Assembly (NCBI RefSeq): GCF_004123675.1
Contig: NZ_CP035417.1
Coordinates: forward strand, 673,501 to 737,500
Reading direction: 5' to 3'
Length of the DNA stretch: 64,000 nt
Source of the DNA: Leisingera sp. NJS204
Lineage (GTDB): Bacteria > Pseudomonadota > Alphaproteobacteria > Rhodobacterales > Rhodobacteraceae
Program-made: the position numbers and the translations under genes
Notes under the pieces: generated by a model
Seen by the model: only the letters and a program-made list of their open reading frames with translations
Database searches by the model: none
Told to the model about the DNA's origin: nothing
Shown: positions 7,100 to 16,470 of the stretch, in pieces
Position numbering within the stretch: the first letter of the stretch is position 1
How the letters are laid out: every line of letters starts with the position of its first letter

Positions 7100-7133
7100 T
7101 CCTTTAGTTTTAGGCACGCCGGACAGGCAAACC

Positions 7134-7147
7134 TTGACCCAGATCAA
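7134..7147. promoter_or_regulatory. FNR/FnrL box between hemN and fnrL
   Basis: TTGACCCAGATCAA matches the FNR consensus TTGATNNNNATCAA at 9 of 10 fixed bases. It lies between the divergent hemN and fnrL genes. Its centre is 41.5 bp from the expected hemN start point, the class II activating position, with TAAAAC as a -10 candidate (7107-7112, minus strand). It also sits 20 bp upstream of the fnrL ATG, where occupancy would block fnrL, so autorepression is likely. Confidence 0.85.
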
Positions 7148-7160
7148 CCGAGATCCCCTG

Positions 7161-7901
7161 ATGCACGCTCCAGTATTGTCACAGTCCAGATGCGGCGACT
7201 GCCCGATCCGCCACCGCGCCGTCTGCGCGCGCTGCAACGCGGATGAGCTGGAGGAGCTGGATGCGGTCAAATACTACCGCACCTATGAGGCCGGCCAGCC
7301 GGTCATCTGGTCCGGCGATGTGATGACCTTTGTCGGGTCCGTGGTGTCGGGCATTGCCTCGCTGACCCAGACGATGGAGGACGGGCGCACCCAGATGGTG
7401 GGGCTGCTGCTGCCCAGCGATTTTGTCGGCCGGCCCGGACGTGAAGGGGCGGCATATGATGTGGTGGCGACCACCGACGTCGTGATGTGCTGCTTCCGCA
7501 AGAAACCGTTTGAAGAGCTGATGGAGCGCACCCCGCATATCGCCCACCGGCTGCTGGAGATGACGCTGGATGAGCTGGACGCCGCCCGCGAATGGATGCT
7601 GGTGCTGGGACGCAAGACAGCGCGCGAGAAGATTGCCAGCCTCTTGTCGATCATTGCCCGGCGCGATGCCTCGCTGACACCGCGCGGCGCCACCAGCCGC
7701 ATGGTGTTCGACCTGCCGCTGACCCGCGAGGCGATGGCGGATTACCTGGGCCTGACACTGGAAACCGTGAGCCGGCAGATTTCGGCTTTGAAGAGGGACG
7801 GCGTTATTGAGCTGGAAGGCAAGCGTCACGTCACAGTGCCCGACATGCGCCGCCTGATGGAAGAGGCCGGCGACGACAGCGACGGCGGCTTCCTGGGCTA
7901 A
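7161..7901 (+). CDS. fnrL: FnrL, oxygen-sensing Crp/Fnr family regulator
   Basis: This 246-aa global regulator senses O2 through a [4Fe-4S] cluster and activates microaerobic genes. The N-terminal cysteine pattern is C11-x2-C14-x7-C22-x2-C25, and C110/C111 supply the central ligand. A cyclic-nucleotide-binding-like fold follows, then a helix-turn-helix (TREAMADYLGLTLETVSRQI) that is typical of Fnr. I chose ATG 7161 because the in-frame TTG at 7134 lies inside the FNR box itself. The neighbours hemN, cco genes and the FNR boxes found here are its expected targets. Assignment to FnrL rather than another Fnr-like protein rests on the cysteine pattern and the hemN linkage. Confidence 0.95.
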   Translation: MHAPVLSQSRCGDCPIRHRAVCARCNADELEELDAVKYYRTYEAGQPVIWSGDVMTFVGSVVSGIASLTQTMEDGRTQMVGLLLPSDFVGRPGREGAAYDVVATTDVVMCCFRKKPFEELMERTPHIAHRLLEMTLDELDAAREWMLVLGRKTAREKIASLLSIIARRDASLTPRGATSRMVFDLPLTREAMADYLGLTLETVSRQISALKRDGVIELEGKRHVTVPDMRRLMEEAGDDSDGGFLG

Positions 7902-9896: not shown

Positions 9897-9988
9897 GGTA
9901 TCAAGGATGCGCCTTTTGCATGAAGGGCGCGGTCTAATAACGTTCCCGTATCCGCAGGATTCGCGGGGGCATGGCAAAGGGACGCAAG

Positions 9989-11599
9989 ATGTCTAACTAT
10001 ATCAAGCTGATAGCGCTTGGTCTGGTCACGCTGTTTGCGATGATCGGGTCCAATTACGCGCGGGATCTGGCTTACCAGGTGCATGCGATCATCGTGATGA
10101 TCGTGGCTGGCGGCCTGTTTCTTTATACTTTGCGCCACACCAACGAGCCGAAACCGGCAGTTATTGGTCTGGAAAATGAGTATTTCGACAGCGTGATCCG
10201 CGCTGGTACAATTGCAACCGCCTTTTGGGGCGTGGTCGGATTTCTGGCCGGGACTTTCATAGCGTTCCAGCTGGCCTTTCCGGCACTGAATTTCGAGTGG
10301 GCGCAAGGCCTGGCTAATTTCGGCCGCCTGCGTCCGCTGCATACCTCGGCAGTGATTTTCGCCTTTGGCGGCAACGCGCTGATCGCAACCTCGTTTTATG
10401 TGGTGCAGCGCACCTCCGCGGCGCGGCTGTGGGGCGGCAACCTAGCGTGGTTCGTGTTCTGGGGCTACCAGCTGTTCATCGTGCTGGCCGCGACCGGCTA
10501 TCTGTTCGGCTCGACCCAGTCCAAGGAATATGCGGAGCCCGAATGGCACGTTGATCTGTGGCTGACCGTGGTCTGGGTCGCCTATCTGGCGGTGTTCCTG
10601 GGCACCGTGATCAAACGCAAAGAGCCGCATATCTATGTGGCGAACTGGTTCTACCTGGCCTTCATCGTCACCGTGGCGATGCTGCATCTGGTCAACAACA
10701 TGACCATTCCGGTGTCCATCTGGGGTTCCAAGTCGGTCATCGTCTGGCCGGGTGTGCAGGATGCGATGATCCAGTGGTGGTACGGCCACAACGCTGTGGG
10801 CTTCTTCCTGACCGCGGGCTTCCTGGGGATGATGTATTACTTCATCCCGAAACAGGCCGAGCGTCCGGTGTTTTCCTACAAGCTGTCGATCATCCACTTC
10901 TGGGCGCTGATCTTCCTTTACATCTGGGCCGGTCCGCACCACCTGCATTACACCGCGCTGCCGGACTGGGCCTCGACCCTTGGCATGGTGATGTCGATCA
11001 TCCTTTGGATGCCCTCGTGGGGCGGCATGATCAACGGTCTGATGACCCTGTCAGGCGCTTGGGACAAGCTGCGCACCGATCCGGTGATCCGGATGATGGT
11101 GATCTCGGTCGGGTTCTATGGCATGTCCACCTTTGAAGGTCCGATGATGTCGATCCGCGCTGTGAACTCGCTGTCGCATTACACCGACTGGACCATTGGC
11201 CACGTGCATTCCGGTGCTTTGGGCTGGAACGGCATGATCACCTTTGGTGCGCTGTATTATCTGGTGCCGGTGCTGTGGAAGCGGGAGCGGCTGTACTCGC
11301 TGAGCCTCGTCAGCTGGCACTTCTGGCTCGCCACCATCGGTATCGTTCTCTATGCCGCATCCATGTGGGTGACTGGTATCATGGAAGGCCTGATGTGGCG
11401 CGAAGTGGATGCCAACGGCTTCCTGGTGAACTCCTTTGCCGACACTGTGGCAGCGAAGTTCCCGATGTATGTGGTGCGCGGCCTGGGCGGGGTCATGTTC
11501 CTCGCTGGTGCGCTTATCATGTGCTACAACCTGTGGATGACTGTCCGTAAGGCCCCGGCAAAAGAAGCCAGCCTGACGGTTCCGGTCCCGGCTGAATAA
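9989..11599 (+). CDS. ccoN: cbb3-type cytochrome c oxidase subunit I
   Basis: CcoN is the catalytic subunit of the high-affinity cbb3 oxidase. It carries a low-spin haem b and the haem b3-CuB centre and reduces O2 to water in the inner membrane. The chain is about 536 aa with roughly 12 hydrophobic helices. Recognisable segments include [20 protein letters not shown] with a haem-ligand histidine, [24 protein letters not shown] with the CuB histidines, and the [11 protein letters not shown] haem-ligand segment. ATG 9989 has AAGGGA six bases before it. An alternative ATG at 9971 lacks proper spacing. It is the first gene of ccoNOQP. Confidence 0.96.
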
Positions 11600-11613
11600 G
11601 GAGCCAGGCAGCT

Positions 11614-12342
11614 ATGTCCATTCTCGACAAACATAAAATCCTCGAGACCAACGCGACCCTGTTGCTGATCTGCAGCTTTCTGGTTGTGACCATCGGCGGC
11701 CTGGTGCAGATTGCACCGCTGTTCTACCTGGAAAACACCATTGAGAAGGTGGAGGGCATGCGCCCTTACACCCCTCTCGAACTGGCGGGCCGGGACATCT
11801 ACATCCGCGAAGGCTGCTATGTCTGCCACAGTCAGATGATCCGCCCGATGCGCGATGAGGTCGAACGCTACGGCCACTACTCGCTGGCGGCAGAGTCGAT
11901 GTACGACCGTCCGTTCCAGTGGGGCTCCAAGCGGACCGGGCCGGATCTGGCCCGTGTCGGCGGCCGCTACTCGGACGAGTGGCACGTCGACCACCTGCGC
12001 AACCCGCAGGCCGTGGTGCCGGAATCGGTGATGCCGAAATACGGCTTCCTTGAGCGTAAGCGGGTCGATGGCAAATACATCGGCGACGTGATGGCGACCA
12101 ATGCGATGCTGGGCACGCCTTACACGGACGGGATGATCGAGGCCGCGCAGGCCGACTTCCGCGCCCAGGCAGATCCCGACAGCGACTATGACGGGCTGCT
12201 GGAGCGTTACGGCGAGAAGGTCAACGTGCGCAACTTCGACGGCCAGCCGGGGGTCTCCGAGGCCGATGCGCTGATCGCTTATCTGCAGATGATGGGCACG
12301 CTGGTCGATTTCTCGACCTTCACCCCGGACGCGAGCCGCTGA
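11614..12342 (+). CDS. ccoO: cbb3-type cytochrome c oxidase subunit II (monohaem cytochrome c)
   Basis: CcoO is a 242-aa membrane-anchored monohaem cytochrome c that passes electrons to CcoN. One N-terminal helix (residues about 15-37) is followed by a periplasmic domain with the haem motif CYVCH at C68/C71/H72. A distal methionine candidate lies in the VMPKYGF segment. The gene starts 14 bases after ccoN, preceded by AAGGAG at the right distance, and ccoQ follows after 10 bases. Confidence 0.96.
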
Positions 12343-12352
12343 GGAGGGACAG

Positions 12353-12565
12353 ATGGAATTCTACACACTCCTCAGGCAATTCGCGGACAGCTGGATGCTG
12401 CTGTTCCTGTTCACCTTCTTTATCGGTGTTGTGGTCTGGGCGTTCCGCCCGGGCAGCACCAAAGTTTACAAGGACACCGCCGACATCCCGTTCCGGCATG
12501 ATGATGCACCGGCGCCCCGTGAAGATGCAGTCAAACCCGCCGGGACCAAGGAGGCGAGGGCATGA
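12353..12565 (+). CDS. ccoQ: cbb3 oxidase subunit CcoQ
   Basis: CcoQ is a 70-aa single-helix subunit that stabilises the cbb3 complex. The helix spans residues about 14-33 ([20 protein letters not shown]) and is followed by a short polar tail typical of the family. A GAGGGAC ribosome-binding site precedes ATG 12353. Its stop codon overlaps the ccoP start (ATGA at 12562-12565), which indicates translational coupling. Confidence 0.93.
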
Positions 12566-13431
12566 GCAAGAAATCGCAAAAGTTCGAAGGCGATCCGAAC
12601 ACCACCGGCCATGAGTGGGACGGGATCGAGGAATTCGACAACCCGATGCCGCGCTGGTGGCTGTGGACCCTGTATGCCACCATCATCTGGGGCGTTCTTT
12701 ACACCATCGCCTATCCGGCCTGGCCGCTGATCAACGGCGCCACTGCCGGGGTGCTGGGCTGGTCGACCCGCGCCGACGTGGCGGCTGAAATCACCGCGGT
12801 GGAAGAAGCCAACGCGCCGGTCAACGCCAAGCTGGAAGCAACCGAGCTGACAGCCATTGCGGAAGATGCTGAGCTGAACGCCTACGCGGTGTCGGCGGGT
12901 TCTGCCGTGTTCAAGACCTGGTGCGCCCAGTGCCACGGGTCCGGTGCGGCAGGGGCCAAGGGTTACCCGAACCTGCTGGACGACGACTGGCTGTGGGGCG
13001 GTTCGGTGGAGGATGTCCACGCCACCATCACCCACGGCATCCGCAACGAAGACAGCGATGATGCGCGCTATTCCGAGATGCCTGCATTCGGCCGTGACGA
13101 GCTGCTTGAGAAAGAAGAGATTTCCCAAGTGGTCAACTATGTGATGTCGCTGTCGGGCGAGGCGCAGGATGCCTCCAAGGTTGAGGCCGGATCGGTTGTC
13201 TTTGCCGACAATTGTGCCTCCTGCCACGCGGATGACGGCACCGGCGACCGCAGCCAGGGCGCGCCGAACCTGGCCGATGCGATCTGGCTTTACGGCGGCG
13301 ATTACGCCACCCTGAGCGAGACCGTGACCAATTCGCGTTACGGCGTGATGCCGGCCTGGAACACCCGCCTGACCGAGGCGCAGATCCGGGCGGTCTCGTC
13401 TTATGTCCACCAGCTGGGCGGCGGCGAATAA
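12562..13431 (+). CDS. ccoP: cbb3-type cytochrome c oxidase subunit III (dihaem cytochrome c)
   Basis: CcoP is a 289-aa dihaem cytochrome c that takes electrons from soluble or membrane cytochromes for the cbb3 oxidase. An N-terminal domain carrying the [18 protein letters not shown] segment leads into one membrane helix (about residues 32-55). Two cytochrome c domains follow, with haem motifs CAQCH (C121/C124/H125) and CASCH (C218/C221/H222). Distal methionine candidates are SEMPAFG and GVMPAW. It starts within the ccoQ stop and is followed by a terminator at 13461. Confidence 0.96.
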
Positions 13432-14358: not shown

Positions 14359-15051
14359 CTAGCCCATCGAAGTCATTGAGCTGCGTTTGCGGGCGCGGGC
14401 GGCGTCTGCTGTGGTGCTCCACCAGGCGATGCTGCCCCACAGCAGCACATAGAAAACACCGGTGCCAAGCACCAGCTCGCCGGGAAACGGGCCGATGTCA
14501 GCGCGGTCCACCGCTTGCTGCAGGGACAGGACAGCGGTTGGATGCACCACCAGTTTGCCCGCATAGGCCAGTGACTGGATCAGCAGGATCCAAAAGTAGT
14601 TGCGCCGGATCCGCCGTCCGATCGCAGTCATGACACTTACATGGTATTGGGGCCGCAGATAATCCGCGGCCAGAACGTCCTGCCAATGATCTTCCAGATG
14701 CAGGTCGCCTTCCTTCAGCATCGAGGTATAAAAATGCGTCTCCATCCAGCGGGCACGGGCGCGGAAGACGTTGAAATAGCGGTAGCGGCGGGCCTCCAGC
14801 ATCAGGAAGAAGATGATCAGCACCCCCACCAGGATCAGCGGCAGGGGCGAGGCTTCGGGCGAGGAAAAGGAAATCGACAGTGCCACGCCCAGGGTGACGA
14901 CCGACCAGTTTGTGGTGGTGTCCAACCGGGTGCGCCAGACGGTGCTGCGGTAGATCTCGCCCCGGTACAAATGCGCCAGGGCGCCGACTTCGGCCGCCGT
15001 CAGCGGTGCGCGGTCACTGGTGACCGCCTGTTCGCGCGTTTCGATGTTCAT
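14359..15051 (-). CDS. DUF2270 family membrane protein
   Basis: This predicted inner-membrane protein of 230 aa belongs to DUF2270. The N-terminal half has the signature ALAHLYRGEIYRSTVWRTRL. Two helices follow (residues about 52-98), then FNVFRARARWMETHFY and a C-terminal pair of helices (about 155-175 and 195-220) ending in an Arg-rich tail. ATG 15051 (MNIETREQAV) is chosen; the upstream in-frame TTG seems unlikely. No strong ribosome-binding site is seen. An FNR-like box at 15103-15116 lies upstream, but its spacing fits a plus-strand promoter better. The function of the family is unknown. Confidence 0.85.
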   Translation of the reverse strand: MNIETREQAVTSDRAPLTAAEVGALAHLYRGEIYRSTVWRTRLDTTTNWSVVTLGVALSISFSSPEASPLPLILVGVLIIFFLMLEARRYRYFNVFRARARWMETHFYTSMLKEGDLHLEDHWQDVLAADYLRPQYHVSVMTAIGRRIRRNYFWILLIQSLAYAGKLVVHPTAVLSLQQAVDRADIGPFPGELVLGTGVFYVLLWGSIAWWSTTADAARARKRSSMTSMG

Positions 15052-15102
15052 AAGGCCGAGCGTAGGTTTTTTCCCGGAGCCGGGCAATTATTTTGCGCCT
15101 TT

Positions 15103-15116
15103 TTGATCCGTGTCAA
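15103..15116 (+). promoter_or_regulatory. FNR-like box driving a candidate small RNA
   Basis: TTGATCCGTGTCAA matches 9 of 10 consensus FNR positions. On the plus strand a TAAAAC hexamer (15139-15144) is centred exactly 32 bp downstream, the class II spacing, and predicts a start near 15151. No protein gene follows on the plus strand before the terminator at 15235-15289. The minus-strand DUF2270 gene starts 52 bp away and could also respond. Confidence 0.65.
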
Positions 15117-15150
15117 ACTTTGCCGGCGGCAAACCGGGTAAAACCGCAGG

Positions 15151-15289
15151 TGAAAGAGATTGCTGCTTGGCTTAACAGCCCTCCTGGGCAGCATGATATC
15201 CCGCAAGGCCGACGTGCAGGCTGAACGGGGTCATGCGCCGGTTTTCCGATCTGTTCGCGCGTTTCCTGGAAAACCGGCGCTTTTTCTTT
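15151..15289 (+). ncRNA. Candidate FnrL-activated small RNA, about 135-140 nt
   Basis: The predicted transcript begins about 41 bp after the centre of the FNR-like box and ends at a strong terminator. Near its 5' end is a small hairpin GCCC-TCCT-GGGC (15178-15189) whose loop is UCCU, complementary to Shine-Dalgarno sequences. This is common in regulatory RNAs. No convincing open reading frame with a ribosome-binding site lies inside. The situation resembles FnrS in enterobacteria only in logic, not in sequence. Expression has not been shown. Confidence 0.5.
15235..15289 (+). terminator. Strong rho-independent terminator of the candidate sRNA
   Basis: GCGCCGGTTTTCC (15235-15247) pairs perfectly with GGAAAACCGGCGC (15268-15280) over 13 bp, then TTTTTCTTTC. 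There is no protein-coding gene upstream on the plus strand, so the terminator itself is evidence for a non-coding transcript. Confidence 0.85.
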
Positions 15290-15313
15290 CTTCCCAAAGG
15301 TCAGGGTCTCAGG

Positions 15314-15493
15314 TCAGATGTTCTGCGGATGAATGCAGCGCGTTTTCGGCGGCCTTGCGGCGAGCCAGCGCATCAGCCGGGTGAACTTGCCTGAAGGGCG
15401 GGACAAGGGGCCGGGCGCAGGCAGGTCCCGCAGCCTTACACAGTCCTGCCGCGTGGCGGTCATCATCGAGCGGGCATAGATATCAATCAGCAT
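15314..15493 (-). CDS. Small hypothetical protein, 59 aa, divergent from LysR gene
   Basis: The frame begins MLIDIYARSMMTATRQDC and ends KTRCIHPQNI. A strong AGGAGG lies eight bases before ATG 15493 (cactgaa spacer), which is the main support. The protein is basic, with the composition of a small cytoplasmic protein, two cysteines and no membrane helix. It diverges from the LysR-type gene with a perfect inverted repeat between them, the usual layout of a LysR target gene. I do not recognise a family. Confidence 0.6.
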   Translation of the reverse strand: MLIDIYARSMMTATRQDCVRLRDLPAPGPLSRPSGKFTRLMRWLAARPPKTRCIHPQNI

Positions 15494-15565
15494 TTCAGTG
15501 CCTCCTATCCTGGCGTCTGTTTCTGATACTTGCGTGAATGCGCGATTCCTGCGAGTTAATTGGAA

Positions 15566-15578
15566 TTACGTTATGTAA
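15566..15578. promoter_or_regulatory. Inverted repeat, probable LysR-type operator
   Basis: TTACGTTATGTAA is a perfect 4+5+4 inverted repeat that contains T-N11-A. It lies 14 bases before the LysR ATG and 73 bases before the divergent 59-aa gene. This is a typical recognition-site position for autoregulating LysR proteins. Confidence 0.5.
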
Positions 15579-15591
15579 GACTGGATTACAT

Positions 15592-16470
15592 ATGGATTGG
15601 CTGAACATGCCGCCATTGGCGGCGCTCAGGGCTTTTGCTGCCTTTGCTGAGACCGGGAATGTGGTGCGGGCAGGCGCGGCGTTGAATGTCAGCCACGCTG
15701 CCATCAGCCAGCAGCTGCGCGCACTGGAGGCGCATATGGGCGCAGCTTTGCTGGACCGCAGCGGCAGGGCGCTGGCGCTGACACCGGACGGAGAGCATCT
15801 GGCCCGTGCGCTGCATCTGGGGTTTGGCGCGATTGAGGCGGCGGTGCAGGAAATATCTGCCGCAGGGGCCGCCCGGCCGTTGCATGTGACCTGTACGCCG
15901 ACGTTTGCCGCCCACTGGCTGATGCCGCGGCTGGCCGGGTTTCAGGCCGAGCATCCGGAGATTGATCTGGTGCTGGACCCGCGGGGCGAGATTGTCGAGC
16001 TGAAGCCGGGCGGTGTGGATATTGCCATCCGCTACGGCGACGGCAGCTGGCCGGGGCTGGAGACCGGGATGCTGCTGCAATCGCCGATGGTGGTCATTGC
16101 GGCGGGCAGTCTTCTGGACGGTCGGCAGGTGGCATCCCCGGAGGATCTGCTGGATCTGCCCTGGCTCGAAGAACTGGGCACCTCGGAGGCCTCGCGCTGG
16201 CTGGAATCGCGCGGCGTCACCGAGGCTTTGCGCGGGCCGCGCACCCGGCTGCCCGGCAATCTGCTGATGCAGGCGGTACGGGCGGGCCAGGGGGTGGCAG
16301 TCAGTGTGCGGGAGTTTGTTGCCGAGGATCTGGACAGCGGGCGGTTGCTGGAACTGTTCACCGAAGGCGCAGACCGGGGCTATCACATCGTGACCCGCCC
16401 CGGCGTGCTGCGCCGGGAGGCGCGCAAGCTGACCAGCTGGTTGCGGCGGCAGAAGAAGGAGGACCGGTGA
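15592..16470 (+). CDS. LysR-family transcriptional regulator, GcvA-like
   Basis: This 292-aa DNA-binding regulator starts MDWLNMPPLAALRAFAAFAE, the usual GcvA-type opening. A winged helix-turn-helix occupies residues about 8-66 (VVRAGAALNVSHAAISQQLR). An effector-binding domain follows, with CTPTFAAHWLMPRLAGFQAEHPEIDL and VDIAIRYGDG. ATG 15592 is chosen over an upstream frame that has no ribosome-binding site. The ligand is unknown. Its divergent neighbour is the 59-aa gene, the likeliest regulatory target along with itself. Confidence 0.9.
   Translation: MDWLNMPPLAALRAFAAFAETGNVVRAGAALNVSHAAISQQLRALEAHMGAALLDRSGRALALTPDGEHLARALHLGFGAIEAAVQEISAAGAARPLHVTCTPTFAAHWLMPRLAGFQAEHPEIDLVLDPRGEIVELKPGGVDIAIRYGDGSWPGLETGMLLQSPMVVIAAGSLLDGRQVASPEDLLDLPWLEELGTSEASRWLESRGVTEALRGPRTRLPGNLLMQAVRAGQGVAVSVREFVAEDLDSGRLLELFTEGADRGYHIVTRPGVLRREARKLTSWLRRQKKEDR

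Follow-up and report, generated by a model that had tools for sequence, protein, structure and literature searches.

The region between the DUF2270 and LysR genes in the cbb3 cluster of Leisingera sp. NJS204 (NZ_CP035417.1) quite likely encodes a stand-alone small RNA of about 140 nt, activated by FnrL, that would act in trans by pairing with its targets through the loop of a terminator-like hairpin. From what can be read in this genome and its relatives, such a short RNA is probably made at low oxygen, beside the cbb3 genes. The hairpin itself, not identified as a known motif in the first-pass annotation of this DNA, had already been described as HRC-8-4, a motif with 160 unique representatives in Rhodobacterales, located between ccoNOQP and ccoGHIS (PMC8632094, RNA Biol 2021, in the available part of the text). 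The same part of the paper reports a terminator-like stem with a conserved tip, for which its authors speculate on a riboswitch-like or HvrB-binding function.

Within the window, that is, the whole stretch of 64,000 nt that was analyzed, genes follow each other in the order hemN, a Crp/FNR-type regulator, a universal stress protein, ccoNOQP, a DUF4274 protein, DUF2270, the RNA element, LysR and ccoGHI. The cco names are a reading of the open reading frames, with ccoP identified additionally by TIGR00782. The features considered here are listed below.

7134-7901: Crp/FNR-type regulator gene, taken as FnrL
9971-13431: ccoNOQP
14359..15051, minus strand: DUF2270 integral membrane protein gene, divergent from the RNA (Pfam PF10028, E 2e-66)
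15087..15116, minus strand: promoter-like site of DUF2270, TTGACA-18-AATAAT, 11/12 matches, its -35 within the FNR-like box
15103..15116, plus strand: FNR-like box TTGATCCGTGTCAA, centre 15109.5, at -41.5 from the predicted start
15139..15144, plus strand: TAAAAC, predicted -10 element
15151..15289, plus strand: predicted small RNA of ~139 nt, start from the class II spacing (+/-2 nt), end from the terminator
15162..15192, plus strand: 5' hairpin region with a UCCU loop (15182-15185)
15235..15280, plus strand: terminator-like hairpin with a 13-bp perfect stem, assigned to HRC-8-4
15251..15265, plus strand: loop core CTGTTCGCGCGTTTC, 15 nt, putative pairing region (seed)
15281..15289, plus strand: T-run TTTTTCTTT
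15323-15493, minus strand: open reading frame of 57 aa, convergent with the RNA, no Pfam family
15538-16470: LysR gene, downstream of the RNA
from 16696: ccoG

Setting TAAAAC as positions -12 to -7 places the predicted start at 15151 and the centre of the box at -41.5, the class II position. The box, the hexamer at this spacing and a predicted start near 15151 had all been proposed in the first-pass annotation, and the box, hexamer, hairpin and T-run lie within a base or two of the places given there. The same hexamer does occur in the hemN promoter at 7107-7112, as had been claimed, but one base closer to its box (centre -40.5). The FNR-like box by itself is not significant: the window holds 21 sites with two mismatches or fewer versus 13.5 expected, and 5 of 100 shuffled sequences contain as many. 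Boxes with at most one mismatch are four in number, located at hemN/fnrL (7134), ccoN (9883), the RNA (15103) and ccoG (16628).

The predicted 139-nt RNA folds at -59.7 kcal/mol, compared with -46.0 +/- 3.9 for 200 shuffled sequences (z -3.5, none as low). The 13-bp perfect terminator stem followed by a T-run, reported earlier, is present at 15235-15289: its arms GCGCCGGTTTTCC (15235-15247) and GGAAAACCGGCGC (15268-15280) enclose a loop of 20 nt (15248-15267), and the subsequent TTTTTCTTT matches the strong stem and U-run of HRC-8-4. This hairpin scores 68.9 bits with the covariance model R1 and lies between ccoNOQP and ccoG, as the HRC-8-4 placement requires. Membership in HRC-8-4, judged on position, shape and lineage, fits, as both are terminator-like, have a conserved tip, belong to Rhodobacterales and sit between ccoNOQP and ccoGHIS. 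Unlike the present analysis, the available part of the published description names no promoter, no FNR box and no split between copies behind ccoP and stand-alone copies. In the literature searched, with subscription papers largely outside it, neither a description of HRC-8-4 as an FNR-controlled RNA nor a paper other than PMC8632094 naming the motif was found.

The earlier statement that this strand carries no protein gene holds insofar as no open reading frame of at least 80 aa starts between 15142 and 15537, but a 74-aa open frame spans the RNA region. On the opposite strand, the 57-aa frame (15323-15493) was recovered by tblastn at the same place in Leisingera and in some other loci, and is possibly a real small gene.

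In the genomes compared, the RNA locus appears conserved beyond chance. The region was matched in 20/20 genus relatives searched (in G007, the genome of locus L021, by BLAST in the 3' part only) and in 10/80 other relatives, nine of them through the hairpin and one (G027) through another part of the query. All 21 genus loci, the one studied here included, carry a TTGAT-N4-RTCAA box, a hexamer beginning with TA at the -10 place (TAAAAC, TAGAAC, TACACA, TAAACA, TAGTGT or TACAGG) and the loop core, which is found 96-100 nt from the predicted start, while the first T run ends at 132-135 nt. The whole RNA is recognizable inside the genus; other genera keep the hairpin only, with a covarying stem and an unchanged loop.

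The first-pass annotation had seen in the UCCU loop of the 5' hairpin the part of an FnrL-activated sRNA that would target ribosome-binding sites, and had named a loss of box, hairpins and terminator in close relatives as grounds for rejecting the idea. The box, the -10 place and the core of the terminator loop are kept in 21/21 genus loci, but TCCT occurs within the first 70 nt of the RNA in 12/21 genus members only, and the invariant element is the loop of the terminator. UCCU was accordingly dropped as a candidate seed. The stretch GCCC-UCCU-GGGC (15178-15189) forms a hairpin in the minimum-energy fold and is absent from the centroid. What stands of the initial reading is, by comparison, a putative FnrL-type class II promoter before a terminated short RNA in each of the genus loci; the role given to the UCCU loop does not.

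To what extent is the hairpin maintained outside the genus? A covariance search in relatives, which the first-pass annotation had proposed, found it in 189 of 395 family genomes, and in 3 of 290 genomes of a class-wide sample, all three own or same family, so that the hairpin is restricted to Rhodobacterales in these samples (both runs used stricter filters, under which weak matches are lost). A ccoP gene above the cut-off is present in 364 of the same 395 genomes, and none of the 31 genomes lacking it is among the 189 with the hairpin, as seen by comparing the two tables by eye. The stem covaries: a set of 72 diverse hairpins has standard pairs in 93.2% of its pair cells, double-sided changes affect 12 of the 13 pairs, and cells with such changes number 193 versus 51.7 in shuffles. 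The 15-nt core is identical in 49/50 model matches (the 30 best and 20 lower ones, among the matches listed), a sample that is less biased than an exact scan, although the model also weighs sequence and loop variants among the weakest copies may be missed. An exact scan for the 18-base loop string, in which loops are identical by construction, yielded at least 119 stretches and at least 122 occurrences. Among the matches listed, 110 of 122 fall in a cco cluster and form the set of cco-linked copies used below; the other 12, with no cco gene detected in their vicinity, were excluded.

These patterns bear on whether the hairpin could encode a small protein, read in the genus through the frame ...MRRFSDLFARFLENRRF..., an explanation to which we give almost no weight. 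Across the loop this frame is free of stops in all 21 genus loci (longest frame 47-196 codons), with an ATG in the stem in 20 of them; however, the loop is unchanged at third codon positions too (49/50 copies, among the matches listed), an in-frame upstream ATG without a stop exists in only 13/50 copies (among the matches listed), one inserted base in L001 and L002 displaces the frame upstream, and changes in the stem track base pairing, not codons.

Copies of the motif come in two arrangements. In the first one, defined by a distance of at most 130 nt between the loop and the end of the ccoP match and with a box sought in the preceding 260 nt, the hairpin stands just behind ccoP, which is the case for 69 of the 110 copies, with an FNR-like box in 1/69. 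The 41 copies located elsewhere have such a box in 37/41 cases (both counts among the matches listed), and the four exceptions are tandem copies behind ccoP (L053, and L113 twice) and L082, on a contig that starts 128 nt upstream. A second sample of 20 lower-scoring matches, partly overlapping the first, gave the same division, with a box in 5/5 stand-alone copies and 0/15 others (among the matches listed). The separate sRNA unit proposed at first, with a predicted FNR-type promoter of its own at this locus, is not the common state, as most sampled relatives carry the hairpin just behind ccoP (69/110, among the matches listed). Tandem hairpins, two or three of them about 91 nt apart, are found behind ccoP in L053 and in L113/L199 (G217 contig 42), the latter two lying on contigs of equal length, probably one and the same.

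The association with FNR-type boxes concerns both arrangements. In 36 non-redundant stand-alone copies, TATAAT-like matches peak at -12 for a box set at -41.5 (z 6.1). The mean match at the class II offset (2.89/6 versus 1.13 for the background) is the highest of all offsets, and matches of at least 4/6 occur there in 10/36 copies, compared with 4 and 0 at the neighboring offsets. In the behind-ccoP class, an FNR-like box is found upstream of ccoN in 34/34 cases for which this upstream region was available, versus 1/34 in a within-gene control. With a box at ccoN or one of its own, nearly every copy therefore has an FNR-type box upstream. The cbb3 operon is induced by FnrL in D. shibae (PMC5398030), and ccoNOQP is under direct FnrL control in R. 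sphaeroides (PMC4263372), according to the available parts of these two papers. On a CcoP tree of 93 rows, in which the nearest rows to the studied locus are Leisingera, the arrangement changes 15 times by parsimony, and at least 8 changes are forced by well-supported branches, the loop and the FNR link being kept throughout. This tree was built by a quick method, is unrooted and thus gives numbers of changes without their direction, and leaves out ambiguous copies and loci without a usable CcoP.

Might the box serve the divergent DUF2270 gene alone, the hairpin being a plain terminator? The box overlaps the -35 of a minus-strand promoter-like site with 11/12 matches (sites of this type number 5 in 14 kb versus 4.2 in shuffles), but a box stands before the hairpin at many loci with ccoP or LysR as the upstream neighbor on the same strand, and the class II -10 signal, as a mean over 36 copies, points toward the hairpin. 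Nor would a plain terminator be expected to preserve its loop. Where a strong ccoP occurs without a model match, in the 20 genomes compared, the 1.4-2.6 kb behind ccoP contain no core nearer than 3 mismatches, so that the loop is not simply the usual form of terminators there. Together, these points make such an explanation very improbable. One of these 20 genomes (G253, locus L303) has a hairpin just after ccoP with the loop CTGTTCGCACATTCT, which may be a degenerate or divergent form of the motif.

The function suggested in the original description is a terminator-embedded riboswitch or attenuator, in which the loop would be occupied by a ligand or by the LysR protein HvrB, the terminator would fail to form, and hvrB or ccoG downstream would be read. 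It accounts for the terminator-like stem, the conserved tip and the frequent presence of hvrB or ccoG downstream (PMC8632094, in its available part), and, among the matches listed, the next recognized gene after 61 of the 69 behind-ccoP copies is indeed ccoG (38) or LysR (23) on the same strand. The downstream neighbors nevertheless vary: among the matches listed, the next recognized gene is an opposite-strand DUF2270 in 6/110 copies, and LysR lies upstream of the motif in 6/41 other copies (L065, L095, L098, L100, L122 and L130), contrary to the claim of an always immediately downstream location. In addition, ccoG has an FNR-like box of its own in 79/82 cases, and in the window the hairpin is separated from LysR by a minus-strand open reading frame and about 300 nt. 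A terminator-embedded riboswitch of the HMP-PP or guanidine-IV type would be expected in the 5' leader of a same-strand gene under its control, an arrangement with which many of the listed copies agree and others do not. A good T-run, approximated as at least 4 T in the 8 bases after the stem, is present in 28/50 and absent in 22/50 copies (among the matches listed), so some copies are unlike canonical terminators or good Hfq tails. On balance, a riboswitch or attenuator appears rather unlikely.

A constant 15-base loop on a freely changing stem, located in the oxidase operon or behind an FNR-type promoter of its own, agrees best with pairing of the loop in trans. A candidate target is the divergent neighbor: the loop core is perfectly complementary over 15 nt to codons 4-8 (ETREQ) of DUF2270 (15028..15042, minus strand). 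Within the genus, the full-length match is limited to the own genome and its nearest relative G002 (2/21 loci); 10 complementary bases are found in 8 other genus members (L007-L012, L016, L018) and fewer in the rest, and in the windows of other genera the match is 9 bases or fewer. None of 300 shuffled loops reaches as high a mean longest match to DUF2270, a result inflated by shared ancestry. With G-U pairs counted, the own genome offers 16 sites able to pair along the complete 15-base core, versus 12 for a reversed control. One of these is the hairpin itself, and DUF2270 is the sole site at the beginning of a recognizable gene, with perfect Watson-Crick pairing. Another of the 16, in L376, lies at +15 of a TTG-start frame beside an opposite-strand gene; this frame has no Pfam family and is taken for spurious.

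Wider searches gave less. Across 120 family genomes no family-wide target was found, with 176 near-complements, including the motif's own hairpins, versus 127 for the reversed control. In 13 genus genomes, a 14-base core with one mismatch gave 58 sites, or 43 once the hairpins and two DUF2270 sites are removed. Against these 43 one-mismatch complements or copies, the reversed control gives 18, while genomes outside the family show no such difference (20 versus 17), and this genus excess is partly orthologous coding DNA counted once per genome. Most sites lie deep within genes in the 20 one-mismatch stretches that were inspected. In L248-L252 (G003, G007, G010, G011, G012), codons 14-18 of an open reading frame that we take to be the serine kinase PrkA read GAAACGCGCGAGCAG, which is complementary to the core with one G-U pair, and may be plain ETREQ codon usage.

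Two further groups of genes deserve mention. In D. shibae, the aa3 oxidase is repressed when cbb3 is induced (PMC5398030, in its available part), which made ctaC and ctaD attractive as targets. Complementarity to these competing oxidase genes is no better than that of shuffled loops, 16/200 of which score as high for ctaC and 59/200 for ctaD (30 of 41 genomes' loci used for each, 17 and 18 with the motif, respectively), and both genes were discarded; among the matches listed, several ctaC windows share a CAGGAC before the start, with about 6 bases of pairing only. In the ccoG 5' region of other genera there is a scattered excess: at least 8 matching bases are present in 11/117 windows, versus a mean of 1.6 and a maximum of 9 windows in the control, with 0/300 shuffles as high, but the mean longest match is ordinary (34/300 shuffles as high). 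Shine-Dalgarno letters may contribute to this excess. The 5' regions of ccoG in L088, L109, L136, L179, L197, L204 and others contain, some 14-50 nt before the extrapolated ccoG start, stretches such as GCGCGAACAG or GCGAACAGGAC that could pair with the loop in its 5' half. DUF2270 and ccoG aside, complementarity to other neighboring genes is at chance.

Several points stand against an RNA target: none emerges family-wide in the 120 genomes, the full match to DUF2270 is present in only 2/21 genus loci, and ctaC and ctaD show no excess complementarity. Protein binding could keep a loop just as constant, and the hairpin might then be a 3'-end element acting purely in cis: a protein or an RNase-protecting factor held by its loop would determine how stable the carrying RNA is, and nothing would be targeted in trans. 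The position of 69/110 copies just behind ccoP (among the matches listed) and the outcome of the search in 120 family genomes both agree with such a role. Stand-alone copies, however, keep the loop together with an FNR-type promoter, and no gene is recognized between their box and the hairpin, so that a pure stabilizer would have nothing to stabilize. Besides, 15 invariant bases exceed the needs of most protein sites. We regard a purely cis-acting element as unlikely, while granting it some credit.

The preferred reading, a small RNA pairing through its loop, can be set beside known systems. FnrS is an enterobacterial sRNA activated by FNR, and the comparison drawn with it in the first-pass annotation is apt as regards logic, both consisting of an FNR-type box and a short terminated RNA. 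Loop and neighborhood differ, and no Rfam family reaches its gathering score in the window (15000-15400 contains two unrelated matches, E 0.3 and 3.4), which is consistent with the "unrelated sequence" that had been noted and sets aside known Rfam families, FnrS included, as the identity of this RNA. In Rhodobacter sphaeroides, PcrZ is likewise an oxygen-linked sRNA, of 136 nt, from the same order, under PrrA and perhaps FnrL, but its locus differs when compared by position, with a 5' end at 2,565,820 of chromosome 1, about 125 kb from ccoNOQP (2,440,200), as given in the source parts available. A CrpK target-table peak at 2,565,800-2,566,399 of the same chromosome, assigned to RSP_0820, covers this 5' end and is common to FnrL according to the paper's supplementary figure list; in these accessible tables, it hints at direct control of PcrZ by FnrL or CrpK.

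Other sRNAs of R. sphaeroides share single traits with the one proposed here. For RSs0019 and RSs2461, ChIP places FnrL in the putative promoter region (PMC4263372), but both are away from the cbb3 locus, RSs0019 on chromosome 2 (PMC4263372) and RSs2461 co-transcribed with RSP_0847 (PMC3320616), as far as the available parts of these papers tell. SorX, PcrX and CcsR1-4 are located in mRNA 3' regions, as most HRC-8-4 copies may be, but they have other host genes, and a stand-alone FNR-driven form is not described for them in the portions of the sources at hand.

In the course of events that we infer, from transcription and FnrL binding to action in trans on a target, a fall in oxygen would lead FnrL to bind the box at -41.5 and to recruit RNA polymerase to the TAAAAC -10 element. 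Transcription would end at the HRC-8-4 hairpin, whose stem would serve both as a terminator and as a scaffold, displaying the invariant 15-nt loop core (CUGUUCGCGCGUUUC) for pairing with target mRNAs. In relatives with the hairpin behind ccoP, the RNA would be made together with ccoNOQP, that is, whenever this FnrL-controlled operon is made, and here from its own FNR promoter. In Leisingera sp. NJS204, one plausible target would be the divergent DUF2270 mRNA at codons 4-8. Since the box overlaps the -35 of DUF2270, direct repression of this gene by FnrL is also possible, and FnrL could repress it at both levels, promoter and RNA.

Extended to the family, the proposal is that HRC-8-4, instead of being a riboswitch, forms the seed hairpin of an oxygen-limitation sRNA common to the family, for which we consider the chances about even. 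This sRNA would always be made along with the high-affinity oxidase and would turn down other genes in trans, the divergent DUF2270 gene among them in the species studied here. The loop would then belong either to the end of the oxidase mRNA or to an independent FNR-promoted gene, with at least 8 passages between the two forms. While the HRC-8-4 hairpin was already known, what is added here is a comparative case for its FNR-type regulation and mode of action. If true, an orphan RNA motif present in 189/395 sampled family genomes would gain both a function and a regulator, and its independent shifts between an element at the 3' end of an mRNA and a stand-alone sRNA gene would form a natural series. 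It would also make testable the question of whether roseobacters, Paracoccus and Rhodobacter have a dedicated riboregulator within their cbb3 oxidase regulon.
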